Assembly (NCBI RefSeq): GCF_021729865.1 | Contig: NZ_CP063400.1 | Span: 3,472,001 to 3,536,000 of the forward strand | Length of the DNA stretch: 64,000 nucleotides | Reading direction: 5' to 3' | Origin: Hydrogenophaga sp. SL48 | GTDB taxonomy: Bacteria; Pseudomonadota; Gammaproteobacteria; Burkholderiales; Burkholderiaceae_C | Shown here: positions 7,749-16,905 of the stretch, one piece after another | Layout: each line of letters opens with the position of its first letter | Position numbering within the stretch: the stretch's first letter is position 1 | The notes under the pieces: model-generated | The model's input: only the letters and a program-made list of their open reading frames with translations | What the model was told of the DNA's origin: nothing | The model's database searches: none | Translations under genes and position numbers: made by a program

Positions 7749-8163
7749 CATTGGGGTTCTTGGCGGGGTTTTACAGACGGATACAGAGCGGACTGTGCGC
7801 TCGCGGATGCAGCGATGGAATTTGAGCCGTGCGTCGATGCCGGGTGCGCCCGCCTTTGACCGTGACATGGACCCGCGCACCGACCACGGCGGGTCCTTGA
7901 AGCCACTCGCCCACGAGGGCATCTTTGGCAATGCCGTCCATTCCGGCGGACTCAAGACACCCTGGGAACGCCGGAATACACCCGGACAAGGCACCGCGGT
8001 CGGTGCGGCTGGTGGCACCACCCTTGCTGGAGGGTGTTCGCGGCCGCTGTTTCGAGAAGTGCAACGAGGCGCTGGCGGTGGAACGACGCCCGGGGGACAT
8101 GACGCCGGGCCGGGCCAGGCCGGGCAATGCTGCGAACACACAGACCAACTTGTGGACCACCCA

Positions 8164-8190
8164 TGTCACAAAACGCCGGCCACAAACGTC
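8164..8190 (+). promoter_or_regulatory. ECF41-type promoter of the sigma factor gene (autoregulation)
   Basis: TGTCACA (8164-8170), 16 bases, then CGTC (8187-8190). This is exactly the -35/-10 pair I know for ECF41 sigma factors, with the right spacing, and it lies 64 bases before the sigma factor start. The same motif recurs before the downstream gene. Confidence 0.85.
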
Positions 8191-8254
8191 TGATGCAGCA
8201 AACAGCTTTGCGACCCCACTTCCCACCCGACCATCATGTAAGGTTGACGCCACC

Positions 8255-9136
8255 ATGGACGACGCCACCCACACCTTCCAGCGCCAACGCCGGCGCCTGC
8301 AGGGCATTGCCTACCGGATGCTCGGCTCCATCGCCGAGGCCGAAGAGGTCGTCCAGGACGCCTGGCTGCGCTGGCACGATGCCGACCGGTCCACCATAGA
8401 GAACGCCGAGGCCTGGCTGGTCACCACCACCACCCGCATGGCCATCGACCGCCTGCGCTCGGCCAAAGTGCAGCGGGAGCACTACGTGGGCTTCTGGTTG
8501 CCGGAACCGCAACTGGCGGAATCACCCCCATCGCCCGATCAGGTGCTGGAGCGCGCGGAAGACCTCTCCGTCGCCTTTCTGACCCTGCTGGAGCGCCTGA
8601 CACCCGAAGCGCGGGCGGCGTTCCTGATGCGCGAGGTGTTTGACGCGGACTACGACGAGGTGGCGCGCACCATCGGCAAGAGCGAAGCGGCCTGCCGCCA
8701 GCTGGTGAGCCGCGCGAAGGCCCAGTTGCGCGAAGCCCGGCCCCGCTTCACCGTGGCACCCGAGGCGCACCTTCGTGTGCTCAGCCAGTTCGCAGAAGCC
8801 CTGACCCATGGCAGTTTCGACGCCATGAAGTCCCTGTTGAGCGAGGACGCCGAGTTGATCGGTGACGGTGGAGGCAAGGTCCCGAGTTTCGGCAAACCCC
8901 TTCTGGGTGGCGCGCGCATTGCTCAACTGTTCTATGCGACCCGTCTGCGCTTCAAGGAAGCGGTGCAGGTCGAGCTCGCGGTCATCAACGGGCAGTGGGG
9001 CCTGCTGCGTTTCATCGATGGCGTTCTCGAATCGGTGCAATCCTTCGAGACCGACGGCGAGCGCATCGTGCGCATCCACGCACAGCGCAACCCGGACAAG
9101 CTGCGCCACATGGCGATGGCGTTGAAACCGGTCTGA
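8255..9136 (+). CDS. ECF41-family RNA polymerase sigma factor with fused SnoaL-like domain
   Basis: A 293-aa sigma factor. Region sigma2 spans about residues 8-75 and sigma4 about 100-160. The linker motif WLPEP (81-85) and the C-terminal extension motifs DGGGK (204-208) and NPDKL (279-283) are the three hallmarks of ECF41. In this group the fused C-terminal SnoaL-like domain replaces a separate anti-sigma factor and modulates activity; no anti-sigma gene is present here, as expected. Starting at ATG 8255 gives a complete sigma2; the longer frame upstream is not supported. The next two genes are the typical ECF41 neighbours. The stimulus is unknown. Confidence 0.95.
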   Translation: MDDATHTFQRQRRRLQGIAYRMLGSIAEAEEVVQDAWLRWHDADRSTIENAEAWLVTTTTRMAIDRLRSAKVQREHYVGFWLPEPQLAESPPSPDQVLERAEDLSVAFLTLLERLTPEARAAFLMREVFDADYDEVARTIGKSEAACRQLVSRAKAQLREARPRFTVAPEAHLRVLSQFAEALTHGSFDAMKSLLSEDAELIGDGGGKVPSFGKPLLGGARIAQLFYATRLRFKEAVQVELAVINGQWGLLRFIDGVLESVQSFETDGERIVRIHAQRNPDKLRHMAMALKPV

Positions 9137-9143
9137 CGAGGTT

Positions 9144-9170
9144 TGTCACAACCGGCAGGGTTCGCGCGTC
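9144..9170 (+). promoter_or_regulatory. ECF41-type promoter of the CMD/NmrA genes
   Basis: TGTCACA (9144-9150), 16 bases, then CGTC (9167-9170), identical in elements and spacing to the site before the sigma factor gene. It begins 8 bases after the sigma factor stop codon and lies 44-70 bases before the chosen start of the carboxymuconolactone decarboxylase-like gene. Confidence 0.88.
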
Positions 9171-9213
9171 TTCAGGGTGTGTCTCACAACCCTGAATGAA
9201 AGCGAAGCTCACC

Positions 9214-9693
9214 ATGACCCAACGCATCAACTACGCCGAACAGTCCGCCGAATTCTTCAAGAAGTTCGTCGCCTTCAGCACCGCACTGAACCACAGCGCC
9301 ATCGAGGAGGGCATCCGCCACCTGGTCGAGATCCGGGCCTCACAGCTCAACGGTTGCGGCCTGTGTGTCGACATGCACATCAAGCAGGCCACGATCCACG
9401 GCGAACGGCCCCTGCGCCTGCACCATCTGGCGATCTGGCGCGAGTCGACGCTGTTCGTTCCGCGTGAGCGCGCAGCACTCGCCTGGACCGAGGTGCTGAC
9501 CCGAATACCGGAGCACGGTGTGCCCGACGAACTCTATGAGCGGGTGCGCACGCAGTTCTCCGAAAAAGAGCTCTCGGACCTGACCTTCATCGTGATGTCG
9601 ATCAATGCGTGGAACCGCGCCAACGTGGCCTTCAAGACCGTGCCCGGGGCGTACGACGCCGCGTTCGGCCTCGACAAGGCCAACCTCAACTGA
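9214..9693 (+). CDS. Carboxymuconolactone decarboxylase-family (AhpD-like) protein
   Basis: A 159-aa all-alpha protein of the CMD/AhpD superfamily. The redox motif CxxCxxxH is present as C48, C51 and H55 (NGCGLCVDMH), so a peroxidase or thiol-disulfide role is more likely than lactone decarboxylation. It is transcribed from an ECF41 promoter directly upstream, and COE/CMD proteins are the commonest targets of ECF41 sigma factors. An in-frame ATG at 9196 is an alternative start; 9214 matches the usual family N-terminus. It probably forms an operon with the NmrA gene 17 bases downstream. Confidence 0.92.
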   Translation: MTQRINYAEQSAEFFKKFVAFSTALNHSAIEEGIRHLVEIRASQLNGCGLCVDMHIKQATIHGERPLRLHHLAIWRESTLFVPRERAALAWTEVLTRIPEHGVPDELYERVRTQFSEKELSDLTFIVMSINAWNRANVAFKTVPGAYDAAFGLDKANLN

Positions 9694-9710
9694 ACCCAGG
9701 ACACCTCATC

Positions 9711-10487
9711 ATGAAAATCATTGTGATCGGAGGAACCGGCCTGATCGGTTCCAAGCTCGTCGCCCTGCTCCAAGCGCGTGGACACGAGGCCTTGGCGGCC
9801 TCACCGCAGTCGGGGGTGAACACCCTCACGGGCGAGGGCCTGGCCGACGCGCTGGCGGGCGCTCAGGTGGTGATTGATGTGGCGAACTCGCCATCGTTCG
9901 AAGACGCAGCCGTGCTCGCCTTCTTCGAGACCTCGGGCCGCAACCTGCTGGCCGCGGAACGGGCCGCGGGCATCGGGCACCACGTGGCGCTCTCGGTGGT
10001 GGGCACCGACAGGCTCCAGCAAAGCGGCTACTTCCGGGCCAAGGCCGCGCAAGAACGGCTGATCCGGCAGGGCGGCGTGCCGTACACCATCGTGCAATCG
10101 ACCCAGTTCTTCGAGTTCGTCGCCGGCATCGCGCAATCGGGCACGGCAGCCGACGGCAAGACGGTCAAGCTGTCCCCGGCCAGCATCCAGCCGATTGCAT
10201 CCGGCGACATCGCCGCCGCCGTGGCCGAAGCGGCCCTCGCGGCACCGGTCAACGGCGTGATCGAGGTGGCCGGCCCCGAACGGTTCCGGTTGTCCGATCT
10301 GGTGCAAACCTACCTGACGGCCATTCGCGCCCCCCGCACCGTCGTCGCCGATCCAGAGGCACGCTACTTCGGCGCCGAGATCCAGGACAGCACGCTCGTG
10401 CCCGGGGCCAACCCTCGCCTGGGTACCGTTTGTTTCAAGGACTGGCTCGCCGCACAGGCCGGCGCCGGGCTTGCCGCTCGCCCCTGA
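9711..10487 (+). CDS. NmrA-like NAD(P)-binding oxidoreductase
   Basis: A 258-aa atypical SDR. GGTGLIGS at residues 7-14 is the dinucleotide-binding loop, and the HHVALSVVGTDR and GYFRAKAAQE stretches are typical of NmrA/QOR2-type quinone or NADPH-sensing reductases. It lies 17 bases after the CMD-like gene and therefore belongs to the ECF41 regulon by position. The substrate is unknown; a role with the AhpD-like protein in handling reactive quinones or peroxides is inference. Confidence 0.9.
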   Translation: MKIIVIGGTGLIGSKLVALLQARGHEALAASPQSGVNTLTGEGLADALAGAQVVIDVANSPSFEDAAVLAFFETSGRNLLAAERAAGIGHHVALSVVGTDRLQQSGYFRAKAAQERLIRQGGVPYTIVQSTQFFEFVAGIAQSGTAADGKTVKLSPASIQPIASGDIAAAVAEAALAAPVNGVIEVAGPERFRLSDLVQTYLTAIRAPRTVVADPEARYFGAEIQDSTLVPGANPRLGTVCFKDWLAAQAGAGLAARP

Positions 10488-12208: not shown

Positions 12209-12655
12209 TCACTTCTTCTGTCGAGCCGCCTTCACCGCCTTGCCCTTGCCAGCCGGCGCCTTGAGCAGGGCCTGCGCCTGCTCCAGCCAGAGCAGGGTTT
12301 CCGTGTGGGAGAGGAAGCGCCGCAGGTAGTGCGGCGAGAGCTCGCGCATGAGGCCGAGCGTGCGCAGCACGAGCATGTGGGAGTTCAGCGGGCCGGCGTT
12401 TTCGGGGGCGCGGTGCGTGGCCTTCACCACGGCTGCTTCGGCGCCCAGGCGCTCCCAGGTCTCGCGGAAACGTTGGGCGCTTCGCAGTTCGGGCCACTTC
12501 CCGCCGCTGGGTGGGTGTCCGCCCGCTGCGGCCTGGCTGGCCTGGGCGATGTGGGCGTTGAGGGCGGCGAGGGGGGAAGGTGCAGCCCGCTGCGCTGGGC
12601 TGGCTCCTTCCTCCTTTGGGGGAGGGAGACGATCAGGATCGCCGCGGGTGTTCAT
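12209..12655 (-). CDS. DUF2894-type protein, last gene of the channel operon
   Basis: A 148-aa protein with a flexible, Pro/Ala-rich N-terminal third, a helical core (ELRSAQRFRETWERL, LRTLGLMRELSPHYLRRFLSH) and a Lys-rich tail. I recognise it as the DUF2894 protein that accompanies DUF3348, DUF802 and OmpA-like genes in beta- and gammaproteobacteria. Its ATG overlaps the stop of the OmpA-like gene by four bases. It probably acts in the cytoplasm with the long tail of the channel protein; no function is known. Confidence 0.8.
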   Translation of the reverse strand: MNTRGDPDRLPPPKEEGASPAQRAAPSPLAALNAHIAQASQAAAGGHPPSGGKWPELRSAQRFRETWERLGAEAAVVKATHRAPENAGPLNSHMLVLRTLGLMRELSPHYLRRFLSHTETLLWLEQAQALLKAPAGKGKAVKAARQKK

Positions 12656-13338
12656 GGCTTGGCGGTAACCACCGCAGGCGCGGCCGTGCTCGGCGTGGGC
12701 GCGGCGCGGGGCACGGGGGCCATTTCCACGCGGCGGTTGAGCGCTCGGCCCTTTTCATCGGCGTTGCTGGCCACGGGCTGTTCGGCGCCGAAGGCGGCGC
12801 TGAACACGCGCTGGCGCGGCATGCCTTCTTTGACGAGCGTGCGCGTCACGGTGAGCGCGCGCTGTGCCGAGAGCTCCAGGTTGTCTTCGAAGCGCTGGTG
12901 GGGGCCTTTGACGACGGTTTTGTCGTCGGTGAAACCGCTCACCATGAGCATCTCGTCGCGCTCGCCGAGGTACACCTCCAGCGGCGGCACCAGGCTCTTG
13001 AGCAGCTGCTGGCCTTCGGGGCGCAATTCATCCGAGTTGAAGTCGAACAGCACACTGCCGCTGATGCCGATGCGGCCGTTGTTGAGCGTGACGCGGCCGC
13101 TCTGCAGCGGAATGGCGAGCGCTCTTTCCAGCGCCATGCGGCGGGCTTCCTCCTGCTGGCGTTTGGCGATCTCGGACTGCAGGCTGCTCACCAGGTCCAT
13201 CTGCACCAGCAGCACGCCGATGAGGATGAGCACGAACGCGCCGACCACGCCGGACATGAGGTCGCCGAACACGGCCCAGACGGGCGCGGTCTCGCCGAGG
13301 CCGTCGTCGATGGCGGTGTCGTCCACGCTGGAGTTCAT
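12652..13338 (-). CDS. OmpA/MotB-like peptidoglycan-binding partner of a proton channel
   Basis: A 228-aa protein with a short N-terminal cytoplasmic part, one membrane helix (about residues 26-46) and a periplasmic OmpA-like domain. The helix opens with GDLMSGVVGAF; Asp26 stands where MotB has its proton-carrying Asp. The OmpA domain shows FDFNSDELRPEGQ, SGFTDD, LSAQRALTV and NRRVEM, the peptidoglycan-binding signature. It overlaps the upstream channel gene by one base (TGATG) and the downstream gene by four. It should form the stator-type partner of the 878-aa protein. Confidence 0.88.
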   Translation of the reverse strand: MNSSVDDTAIDDGLGETAPVWAVFGDLMSGVVGAFVLILIGVLLVQMDLVSSLQSEIAKRQQEEARRMALERALAIPLQSGRVTLNNGRIGISGSVLFDFNSDELRPEGQQLLKSLVPPLEVYLGERDEMLMVSGFTDDKTVVKGPHQRFEDNLELSAQRALTVTRTLVKEGMPRQRVFSAAFGAEQPVASNADEKGRALNRRVEMAPVPRAAPTPSTAAPAVVTAKP

Positions 13339-15974
13339 CACGCGGCCCCTTGTACCGCAGGCGCGGCGGCCTTGGCGGCCACGGGCTTGCTGGTGCGCAG
13401 CAGGCGCATGTCTTCCACGATGCCTTGCTGCGCGCTGATGCTCAAGTCGATCACCTCGCGCGCCTGAGCCACGTAGTAGGCGAGCTGTTCGTCGCTGCGC
13501 GCCATGTGCTGCCCAATGGCGCCTTCGACGCGTTGCAGGCCGTCGACGAGCTTTTCGTTGGTGCTGCTGAACAGCGCCACGCCTTGCTGGAAGGCTTCTC
13601 CCAGCGCAGCGAGTTCGGCGGTGCTGGTGGCGATTTGCGCGGTCTGCTCGTCGGCCCTGCCGGCCTGCGCGCCCAGGGTCTGCGCGAACTGCGCACCGGT
13701 CTGGTTGAGCACGGTGGTGGCGGACGCGACCAGCGATTCGATGGCGGCGCGCTGCTCGCCCGTGGTCTGCTGCACGTTCTGCAGCAGGCTGCTGATGTGG
13801 GCCACCAGCTCGGTGCGCTCCTGCAGGGCGACGTTGTCGCGCTCGGTGAGTCGGCTCATTTCGCCGCGCAGCTGGCCAATGACTTCGGCCGCGGCCTTGG
13901 GCGCTTCGGAAGCCGTTTCGAGCAGGCGCGACATGGGTGCTTCGAGCGAGGTGCCGAGCGTGGCCAGGTGCTGTGTGACCGCGGCCTGCAGCTCGCCGAG
14001 GCGCTGCACGGCAGCGTGGCCGCGCGCGGCCTCTTCGCTGCGCAGGGTTTGCAGGTGGGTGGCTTCTTCGGCCCGCAATGTTTGCAACTGGGTGCTGATG
14101 GTGCTGTGCAGCGCGGCGGCCTGTTCGGCGGCGGCTTGCTGGCGGGTGGCTTCTTCTGCGCGCAGGGTTTGCAATTGCGTGGCCAGCTCGGCTTGCAGGC
14201 TGGCGAGGCGCTCCACGGCGGCCTGGCCGCGCGCGGCTTCTTCGCTGCGCAGGGCTTGCAGGTGCGTGCTTTCTTCGGTGCGCAGCGCTTGCAGCTGGGT
14301 GCTGATGTCGCTGTGCAGCGCAGCGGCTTGCTCGGCGGTGGCTTGCTGGCGCGCGGCTTCTTCGGTGCGCAGGGTTTGCAGTTGCGAGGCCAGCTCGGCC
14401 TGGAGACTGCCCAGGCGATCCACGGCGGACTGGCCGCGCGCGGCTTCTTCGCTGCGCAGGGCGCTGAGTTCGCTGCGCCAAAGGGCTGCAAGCTGATCCA
14501 TGCGCTGGCCGTGTTGTTGCGTCCACTGCGCTTCCGACTCGGTGCGGGCCAACACGAGCGCTTCGCTCTGCGCCAGCAGGCGGGCCACGCTCTCCATGCT
14601 GCGGATGGCCTGTTCGCTGGCGCTGTGCTGGATGGCGCTGGCGGTGTGCTCCAGCGTCTGGCACACGGCCTGCTGCTGCGCGAGGTGGTGCGCGCCCACC
14701 TGCTGCCACTCGGCCTGCAGGCTGCTGGCCATGCCTTGCAGCGCGGTGGTCCACGCGGCCAGCTTCTGCGCTTCAGCCTGGGCGTGCTCGCTGTGCTGCT
14801 GCGCCGTGGTCTGCTGCACGTTGGCCAGCAGCTGGCCGGCGCGGGCCTCGAAGCTGGTGTTGAACTGCTCCAAGGCGTTGCCCAGGCCGCTCACCAGTTG
14901 CTCGCTGGTGCGAGCGTGGTTCTGCAGCGCAGCGTTCCAGCCTTCGGCCACGGTGCCGGTGGTGGCGGCGAACTGGGTGGACAGGCCGGTCAGCTGCGTC
15001 TGCACCGCGGCGCTCACGCGCTCGTGCAGGCGGGTGGATTCCTGCGCGATGGCGGCCATGGCGTTTTCCACCACGGGCTTGATGCTGTCGCTGGCCACGC
15101 GGGCGCTGGACGACAGGCTCTCGTTGAGCGTCTGCGCCACCGACTGGCCGAGGCCGGTGTACGCGGCGGCGGCTTCGCGGTGGAACTGGTCTTGCCGGGC
15201 GGTGAGCTGTTCATCCAGCTGCTGGTGGCGGCGCTCCACCTGCTCCATGAGCGCCTGCAGCTGCGTGACGACCTGGGGCAGCGCGTCGGCCTGGCGCTGC
15301 AGCGCGGCGAAGGTGTGGTCGCGGTTCTCTGCGGCGATGAAGGCGGCGGTGAAGGGGCGCAGCGCACCGGCGGTGTGTTGCTCCAGCGCGCGGGCCGCAT
15401 CCAAACGCTCGCGGCGGGCGATGGCCGACATGAGGCCCAGCATGGCCGAGCTGGCCACACCGGCGACCGAGGTGCCAAAGGAAATGCCCAGGCCCTTGAT
15501 GGGTGCGGCCAATGCGCCGCGGATGGCGCCCAGATCGGCCGAGCCTTCGAGCGCGAACACGGCGCCTTTGAAGGTGACCACCATGCCAAGGAAAGTGCCG
15601 AGCATGCCGAGCATGACCAGCAGACCGATGAGGTAGGGCGTGAGCGCCAGGCCGGGCAGCGCACCCCGCCCGCTCTCGACGCGCTGGCGCACGGCGTTCT
15701 GCAGCGGCGCGGGCACGCGGGCCAGCCAGTCGGCGAGGCTGCCCAGCGGCTGCGGGATGGTGGCGAGCGCCTGGGCGAGGCCGGTGCTGGCGCTGCGGAA
15801 GCGGCGGATTTCTTGCGCGCCCAGCAGGTAGGCGGCGGCGATGGCCACCGTCATGCCCAGGGCGAGCCAGCTGGCGGTGCCGATGAAGCCGAAGCCCACC
15901 CAGCCGATGGCGAACAGGCCCAGGAGGAAGGCGCCGATGAGCAAGGCGCGACTGGAAAAGGAGGAGGAAGGCAT
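13338..15974 (-). CDS. MotA/TolQ-like channel protein with very long coiled-coil tail (DUF802 repeats)
   Basis: An 878-aa protein. Four hydrophobic segments lie at about residues 9-27, 33-52, 113-135 and 162-184; the last two, with LGTFLGMVVTFKG and LGISFGTSVAGVASSAMLG, match the core helices of MotA/TolQ/ExbB proton channels. From about residue 190 to the end the protein is predicted coiled coil, rich in Ala, Glu and Gln. Residues about 500-655 contain a 69-residue repeat, fitting DUF802, a repeated domain of unknown function. The ATG at 15974 is preferred to a TTG five codons upstream. The partner is the OmpA/MotB-like gene that follows. The architecture resembles ZorA of Zorya systems but the flanking genes differ. 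Confidence 0.88.
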   Translation of the reverse strand: MPSSSFSSRALLIGAFLLGLFAIGWVGFGFIGTASWLALGMTVAIAAAYLLGAQEIRRFRSASTGLAQALATIPQPLGSLADWLARVPAPLQNAVRQRVESGRGALPGLALTPYLIGLLVMLGMLGTFLGMVVTFKGAVFALEGSADLGAIRGALAAPIKGLGISFGTSVAGVASSAMLGLMSAIARRERLDAARALEQHTAGALRPFTAAFIAAENRDHTFAALQRQADALPQVVTQLQALMEQVERRHQQLDEQLTARQDQFHREAAAAYTGLGQSVAQTLNESLSSSARVASDSIKPVVENAMAAIAQESTRLHERVSAAVQTQLTGLSTQFAATTGTVAEGWNAALQNHARTSEQLVSGLGNALEQFNTSFEARAGQLLANVQQTTAQQHSEHAQAEAQKLAAWTTALQGMASSLQAEWQQVGAHHLAQQQAVCQTLEHTASAIQHSASEQAIRSMESVARLLAQSEALVLARTESEAQWTQQHGQRMDQLAALWRSELSALRSEEAARGQSAVDRLGSLQAELASQLQTLRTEEAARQQATAEQAAALHSDISTQLQALRTEESTHLQALRSEEAARGQAAVERLASLQAELATQLQTLRAEEATRQQAAAEQAAALHSTISTQLQTLRAEEATHLQTLRSEEAARGHAAVQRLGELQAAVTQHLATLGTSLEAPMSRLLETASEAPKAAAEVIGQLRGEMSRLTERDNVALQERTELVAHISSLLQNVQQTTGEQRAAIESLVASATTVLNQTGAQFAQTLGAQAGRADEQTAQIATSTAELAALGEAFQQGVALFSSTNEKLVDGLQRVEGAIGQHMARSDEQLAYYVAQAREVIDLSISAQQGIVEDMRLLRTSKPVAAKAAAPAVQGAA
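14018..14470. repeat. In-frame 207-bp tandem repeat inside the channel gene
   Basis: The block GGCCGCGCGCGG followed by CTTCTTCGCTGCGCAGGG or a close variant begins at 14018, 14225 and 14432, exactly 207 bp (69 codons) apart. Two full units and a partial third encode the coiled-coil repeats of the tail. Being in frame, copy number can change tail length without breaking the gene. Confidence 0.85.
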
Positions 15975-16038
15975 GGCTTGTGTTTTCAAAGGCTCAGATT
16001 CGGTGTGGGGCGTTGGCCTGGCGCTTTGGGCGGGGGCG

Positions 16039-16182
16039 GCCCCTCACCCCAGCCCTCTCCCCAGAGGGGCGAGGGAGTGAAGGCACGGTGCGCTGCTGGG
16101 TGGGCAGCTGGCGCCGCCATACCGAGCAGAGAGGGAGTCAACGCCCTCTCCCGCTGGCGGGAGAGGGTTGGGGTGAGGGTGG
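16039..16182. repeat. Inverted pair of CTCACCCC-AGCCCTCTC repeats
   Basis: CCCTCACCCCAGCCCTCTCC (16041-16060) faces GAGAGGGTTGGGGTGAGGGT (16161-16180) as an inverted pair with one mismatch, and each copy adds its own small hairpin (CTCCCGCTGGCGGGAG on the right). The pair fills the gap between the DUF3348-type gene and the channel gene. This repeat type is common in proteobacterial intergenic DNA. Confidence 0.75.
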
Positions 16183-16191
16183 CCACGGAGT

Positions 16192-16905
16192 TCATGGTTC
16201 GAGGGCCTCGATCATCCCCACCACCGGCTGCAGGCGGTGCTCCAGCTCGGCGAGCAGGGTCTGCTCCAGCTCGGCCTCGAAGCCCTGCAGCCAGCGCAGG
16301 TCGTCGGGGGTGTCGGACGCGGCGGCGACCTGGCGCAGGGCCTTGAAGCGCGCCTTGAGGTGGGCGGGCAGGCCGGCGAGCAGGCGCTGTTCGCGCCCGC
16401 CGAGCATCTGGTCCATCACGGCGTCAAGCGCGGCGAGCTGGGCCAGGCGAGGCTCGCCTTTGGCCAGGGTCTGGCGCACGTGCTCGCGCAGCGCGTCCAC
16501 GCTCATCTCCATGCGGCGCTGCTGGTCCTGGTGGCGCTGGTGGAACAGGGCGAACTCGGTGTCGAGGTCGTTCGGGTCGGGGCGGTGTTTCGGATCGCGC
16601 GTGGTGATGGAGCGGGTCAGCGTGGCGCGCACACGCTCCAGCTCGGCTGGCAACGCCTCGGCGGTGGCGGTGGGCGCGCGCGTGGGCTGTTGCGCCGCGC
16701 GCGCGCCCACCGCCGCGATGGACGGGTGCGCCGAGCTCAGCGTGATGGCGTCGGCCACGTTCAGCCACTGGCCCAGGCGCTCGGCCAGGTCCTGCCGGGA
16801 CGCGTCGGCCAGGGCGTGCGCGCCCTCGGGCAGGAAGCCCGCGAGCTGTCGCACCAGGGCCGGGCGGTTGAAGTTGCTGCGCAAGAAAACGGTCCTTCGC
16901 GCCAC
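16192..16905 (-). CDS. DUF3348-type protein, first gene of the channel operon
   Basis: A 237-aa soluble helical protein that starts at GTG 16905. It has an N-terminal stretch (FNRPALVRQLAGFLPEG, DLAERLGQWLNVADAITL) and long C-terminal helices (RRMEMSVDALREHVRQTLA, LARLAALDAVMDQMLGGREQ). I recognise the DUF3348 family, which is found with DUF802, OmpA-like and DUF2894 proteins. No catalytic motif is seen. It is separated from the channel gene by 217 bases carrying an inverted repeat, so expression of the two may differ. The start is uncertain because no ATG is in frame upstream. Confidence 0.78.
   Translation of the reverse strand: MARRTVFLRSNFNRPALVRQLAGFLPEGAHALADASRQDLAERLGQWLNVADAITLSSAHPSIAAVGARAAQQPTRAPTATAEALPAELERVRATLTRSITTRDPKHRPDPNDLDTEFALFHQRHQDQQRRMEMSVDALREHVRQTLAKGEPRLAQLAALDAVMDQMLGGREQRLLAGLPAHLKARFKALRQVAAASDTPDDLRWLQGFEAELEQTLLAELEHRLQPVVGMIEALEP

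Follow-up and report, generated by a model that had tools for sequence, protein, structure and literature searches.

What does a locus do that joins a stator-like membrane channel with a very long tail to two small proteins, of the families DUF3348 and DUF2894, and carries no helicase or nuclease gene beside them? We addressed this question for an operon in a stretch of 64,000 nucleotides (hereafter, the window) from Hydrogenophaga sp. SL48, starting from a first-pass annotation that had been made without database searches.

Identification of the operon as Zorya type III

ORF calling places four co-directional genes, encoding DUF3348, ZorA, ZorB and DUF2894, on the minus strand at 12209-16905 (Table 1), as the first-pass annotation had described. 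It had also reported that the last three genes overlap by a few bases, and the adjacent ORFs indeed share 4 bases both at ZorA-ZorB and at ZorB-DUF2894. All four genes matched the Zorya type III models of PADLOC. The earlier reading of a stator layout, its likeness to ZorAB and the guess at a role in defence are borne out. The ZorA3 model leads the next Zorya model by over 700 bits, and for ZorB3 the lead over the next model of the same library exceeds 250 bits; the 878-aa protein had no meaningful Pfam match. No ZorC, ZorD or ZorE was detected by PADLOC beside zorAB in the 20 flanking ORFs, and the ZorE model PDLC00644 had no match in the window's genome.

The missing helicase and nuclease genes had been taken as a sign that the operon is not Zorya. 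This was mistaken, since DUF3348 and DUF2894 together with the ZorAB genes are what defines Zorya type III (Payne et al., 2021; PMC8565338). The operon is therefore of a kind already known rather than an unnamed machine, and we regard its membership in Zorya type III as nearly certain. What is new here is a further Zorya III operon, in a Hydrogenophaga-like genome whose closest named relatives are mostly Hydrogenophaga. In the papers DUF3348 is called ZorF and DUF2894 ZorG, whereas PADLOC-DB 2.0.0 reverses these labels (DUF3348 is ZorG3 and DUF2894 is ZorF3), so that annotations based on one or the other will conflict.

A flagellar MotAB-type or a TolQR- or ExbBD-type stator working in motility or envelope transport would belong to the same superfamily, and ZorB matches MotB/OmpA models as well as MotB PDB chains across its OmpA domain. 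However, the wide leads of the ZorA3 and ZorB3 models, the constant partners DUF3348 and DUF2894, and the finding that none of 17 neighbours scanned with Pfam carries a flagellar, Tol or Ton domain make such a function very improbable.

Table 1. Positions of the operon's genes and sequence features in the window.
Feature	Position	Strand	Evidence
DUF3348 protein, 237 aa	16192..16905	-	PF11828 E 1.4e-55; PADLOC E 6.9e-62; AlphaFold2 all-helical
21-nt inverted repeat, 97 nt between arms, in DUF3348-ZorA gap	16041..16179	.	sequence scan
ZorA, 878 aa; MotA/TolQ-like channel domain and ~650-residue helical tail	13338..15974	-	PADLOC ZorA3 (PDLC00648) E 2.4e-244
207-bp (69-aa) tandem repeat in ZorA tail, 2.3 copies	13982..14462	-	protein self-match 88% over 40 aa at lag 69
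Conserved ZorA tail stretch (tip), residues 819-858	13401..13520	-	coordinates computed from ORF start; mean pairwise identity 0.79, 0.74
ZorB, 229 aa; membrane helix with Asp27; OmpA/peptidoglycan-binding domain, residues 98-203	12652..13341	-	PADLOC ZorB3 (PDLC00651) E 5.1e-103; NF006547 E 1.4e-100; PF00691 E 6.7e-17
DUF2894 protein, 148 aa	12209..12655	-	PF11445 E 5.1e-35; PADLOC E 1.3e-41; helical model

Conservation of the four-gene arrangement

Relatives were assembled as 116 fetched loci (L065-L180), some genomes being fetched twice and two sets sharing genomes; thinning at 3% ZorB distance left 83 loci, the window included. All four genes were present in 102 of the 116 loci, and the remainder comprised four distant OmpA-only matches (L177-L180) and others lying mostly near contig ends. 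In 101 of the 102 complete loci the genes lie on one strand in the order F-A-B-G (F, DUF3348; G, DUF2894) with short gaps, which was the layout rule applied; in the sole exception, L088, strand and order are intact and the gene calls overlap by 65 bp. The arrangement is not a product of chance, and the co-occurrence anticipated in the first-pass annotation was thus found across genomes.

Median gaps over the 102 loci were -4 bp for F-A, -1 bp for A-B and 99 bp for B-G. The window has 217 bp between DUF3348 and ZorA, a gap absent in most relatives. A script search allowing up to two mismatches found no further copy in the window of the 21-nt inverted-repeat sequence that lies there.

ZorB and the ZorA tail

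The aspartate that had been singled out in the membrane helix of ZorB as D26 is real, but its number in the 229-aa ORF is D27, and D26 applies only with a start at the second Met. Of 102 distinct ZorB sequences, 98 have Asp at this position. The OmpA domain (PF00691) predicts binding of peptidoglycan on the basis of sequence only.

With its 878 aa, ZorA has the long cytoplasmic tail that characterises all Zorya types, and tails of its homologues show helical periodicity. The length of ZorA ranges from 565 to 1193 aa in the 101 complete operons and from 565 to 904 aa in 20 loci of the window's genus. Its coefficient of variation over the 101 operons is 0.153, versus 0.071 for DUF3348 and 0.098 for DUF2894; that of ZorB is 0.033. 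Among 71 pairs with ZorB differing by less than 12%, ZorA lengths differ by a median of 44 aa and by up to 172 aa, which shows that the length of the shaft changes quickly. The hydrophobic period of the tail, determined in 884 windows from 93 distinct ZorA proteins, is 3.63 residues (power 9.4, versus 2.2 at the heptad's 3.5), close to an 11-residue repeat and away from the heptad.

Sequence identity among the same 93 proteins, profiled on either side of the central part of the length-variable shaft, was highest in the channel core at residues 101-180 (mean pairwise identity 0.76-0.88). Identity was 0.28-0.33 at residues 341-420, where the drop toward 420 partly reflects poor alignment, and 0.42-0.64 at residues 659-818. 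It reached 0.79 and 0.74 in the two 20-residue segments of the tip and was 0.19 in the last 20 residues. In a mirror-tree test F and G correlated with the proximal tail no less than with the tip, and the test assigned neither partner to a particular part of ZorA.

The DUF3348 and DUF2894 proteins

The AlphaFold2 model of the DUF3348 protein is all-helical and confident (pLDDT 87.9, pTM 0.84), and the predicted model of the DUF2894 protein is helical and weak (pLDDT 72.2, pTM 0.45). Sequence searches of the PDB gave no match to either protein at E <= 1, and Foldseek gave none at E <= 0.001; VIA matches led from DUF3348 to common helical bundles and were weaker still for DUF2894.

These results bear on the possibility that type III works just as types I and II do, DUF3348 or DUF2894 being the nuclease, in divergent form, that the rod recruits. 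The only nuclease family that Pfam matched was Exonuc_VII_L, on DUF3348, at E 0.053 and with 13 of the 36 bits that its cut-off demands; no nuclease family passed its threshold. The invariant polar residues of DUF3348, Q129, R140, R144, D161 and E220, form no recognised motif, and the confident all-helical model has no enzyme-fold match. We consider this possibility improbable: sequences and models lend no support to a nuclease in either protein, although missing fold matches of helical bundles do not prove the proteins non-enzymatic. Since neither has a detected enzyme or nuclease relative, the published model in which a nuclease is recruited cannot be carried over to type III as it stands. 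In the description of type III, both small proteins are proposed to regulate ZorAB (Payne et al., 2021; PMC8565338).

Distribution across genera and replicons

The distribution was surveyed with one genome per species. In the window's genus, DUF3348 was found in 43 of 60 genomes and in 33 of the 38 graded good. DUF2894 was matched at E <= 0.001 in 46 of 60 and in 34 of 38 good genomes, a number that falls to 32 without two sub-cut-off matches in genomes lacking DUF3348; ZorB3 was above the cut-off in 43 of 60 and, by table count, in 32 of 38 good genomes. As yardsticks, rpoB was detected in 36, HsdR_N in 25 and one ZorE model, marginally, in one of the same 38 genomes. Two other genera, which were picked because a member had a match and hence do not form a random sample, were positive in 50 of 57 genomes (47/54 good) and in 41 of 41 (40/40 good). 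Each positive genome of the three genera has a single DUF3348 match, with the exception of the fragmented genome G030, where it lies in two pieces. At higher ranks, 97/300 genomes and 41/115 genera were positive in the family, 22/300 genomes (20 of them over the cut-off) and 16/139 genera in the order, and 9/377 genomes and 6/270 genera in the class.

Zorya III is thus nearly fixed and single-copy within the three genera examined and patchy between genera. Genus-level patchiness of defence systems is read as horizontal transfer by Payne et al. (PMC8565338), and Mariano et al. (PMC11890865) describe the distribution of the three Zorya subtypes as typical of anti-phage systems. Our survey fits the published patchiness between genera but not within the three genera examined.

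A ZorB homologue (E <= 1e-20) was carried by 27 of 72,556 plasmid records, all of them large (0.37-3.5 Mb), which span seven genera, above all Caballeronia, Paraburkholderia and Burkholderia. Twenty of these plasmids were classed as non-mobilizable and seven as mobilizable. No ZorB homologue at E <= 1e-10 occurred among 50,697 phage records.

The near-fixed, single-copy state in three genera favours an explanation in which the operon mainly encodes a housekeeping motor of the envelope or of cell physiology, protection from phage in Escherichia coli being a by-product of an overexpressed ion channel or rod. The patchiness between genera in the family and the order, however, argues against it.

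Inheritance, loss and neighbourhood

Among 18 genomes of the window's genus, protein distances follow rpoB nucleotide distance, as a housekeeping motor would also have it: the Mantel rho was 0.58 for ZorB and 0.68 for DUF3348 (values that none of 2000 permutations reached); for ZorA residues 1-330 it was 0.39, which was reached in 7 of 2000. The position of the locus points in the same direction. Like the window, 14 of 20 loci of the genus have a same-strand glycerate kinase gene at 0.07-4.4 kb upstream; it was not found in the other six (6.7-8.3 kb available), so that the position is often, although not always, kept.

The kinase gene was also found in 9 of 10 searched genomes without a complete operon. 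In eight of these nine there was no DUF3348, and no zor match was seen around the kinase (18 kb covered in five; contig ends at most 1.5 kb away in two). The ninth, G044, has a partial operon on a different contig (L229, G044:C12:104000-122000), where DUF3348 and a zorA frame ending in the tail are followed by unrelated-looking ORFs; type III zorB and DUF2894 were not found in this genome. Altogether, DUF3348 is absent in 5 of the 38 good genomes of the genus and the operon is broken in one more. Loss is therefore tolerated and the operon dispensable, a second point against a housekeeping motor.

Selection on all four genes is purifying and weaker in the small proteins. In eight pairs, two of which are the same genomes, dN/dS was 0.10-0.26 for ZorB, 0.14-0.25 for ZorA, 0.12-0.55 for DUF3348 and 0.17-0.42 for DUF2894; the kinase gave 0.05-0.13 in six pairs. 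Between the window and the relative L075, dS is 0.46 for DUF3348 and 0.16-0.31 for the other three genes. The DUF3348 of the window is near that of L079 and unusually far from that of L075, whereas in the other three genes the two relatives are similarly close to the window, a discordance of sequence distances that hints at a possible recombination at DUF3348.

No PADLOC match at 1e-5 to a defence gene was obtained in the 20 ORFs flanking the window's locus, so the defence-island setting that the first-pass annotation had proposed to look for was not seen there; this, too, would suit a housekeeping motor. The neighbours scanned with Pfam are mainly metabolic, transport or regulatory. At 7925-10487 of the window, a gene for a sigma-70-family factor is followed by genes for a carboxymuconolactone decarboxylase-family protein and an NAD(P)-binding protein. 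Taken over the genera surveyed, the locus has the look of a resident chromosomal trait rather than of a mobile cassette.

Anti-phage activity and a proposed mechanism

The anti-phage activity expected of the window's operon is by analogy with published systems. In E. coli BL21-AI, Zorya III of Stenotrophomonas nitritireducens significantly reduces plaquing by at least one of the phages tried, and it guards liquid cultures against phage PVP-SE1 at an MOI below 0.1 (PMC8565338), which speaks against a mere housekeeping role. Zorya III is also among the systems predicted in Burkholderia cenocepacia K56-2, and there the first one or two of its genes respond transcriptionally to infection with phage Bcep176, again against that role; in the same report, knock-down of predicted defence genes under Bcep176 changed fitness for none of them, which agrees with a housekeeping role and counts against one in defence, and several reasons are given there why the screen could miss activity (PMC12584637). 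Weighing both sides, we hold a mainly housekeeping function to be unlikely.

Overall, the operon very probably encodes a Zorya III ion-driven motor with two partners that are predicted to be helical. For types I and II, ZorA5B2 motors have been solved, and ion flow, the peptidoglycan-binding domain and the tail matter for defence; in the proposed model, damage to the cell wall leads ZorB to take hold of peptidoglycan and ions to flow, and a nuclease complex is then recruited by the rod (PMC11890865). By extension to type III, five ZorA subunits would surround two ZorB, disturbance of the cell wall by a phage would cause ZorB to grip peptidoglycan, and ions passing Asp27 would make the ZorA rod turn or change shape. 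The rod tip may then dock DUF3348, DUF2894 or both, which would act as an adaptor or as a clutch or gate and relay the signal without cutting DNA. The effect could lie in the flow or leakage of ions, or in a host enzyme that is encoded elsewhere and recruited. In sequence, the elements for the steps preceding nuclease recruitment are present in this operon, and for the last step no nuclease is visible. We give about even chances to the later part of the scheme, namely docking at the tip, a non-cutting adaptor role and an effect through ion flow or an external host enzyme.

More tentatively, and as a possibility to which we give somewhat less than even weight, the operon may encode, instead of a mobile defence cassette armed with a nuclease, a vertically kept, genus-resident rotary machine that senses peptidoglycan and has a rod of free length, a fixed tip and two non-enzymatic adaptors. 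Such a machine could be an innate response to envelope damage or a device of cell physiology, with phage protection as one consequence.

At its description, Zorya III counted 6,401 systems versus 7,742 for types I and II together (PMC8565338). The published type I/II scheme needs a nuclease-like effector, and in Zorya III none is visible. With genera in which the genes are resident, a conserved stretch of the tail, and species with and without the operon in one genus, the survey makes the question of how it works directly testable.

Comparison with known systems

ExbBD and TolQR combine a channel with a single-helix partner carrying a membrane Asp, as does the window's operon; they are not known to have an OmpA-type peptidoglycan domain, a long tail or DUF3348 or DUF2894 partners. 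The MotAB and PomAB stators resemble it, by analogy, in the ion-driven channel with its partner and in the OmpA-like periplasmic domain, but differ in lacking the tail of ~650 residues and in their partners, and no flagellar gene was seen among the neighbours scanned here. With Zorya types I and II the operon shares the ZorA/ZorB motor, the membrane Asp, a peptidoglycan-binding ZorB and the long ZorA tail, whereas their ZorC and ZorD or ZorE nickase are absent beside it; component size is described as well conserved per family (PMC11890865), in contrast to the 565-1193 aa of ZorA here. The same four families in the same layout are found in Zorya type III, of which the tested representative comes from S. 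nitritireducens (PMC8565338).
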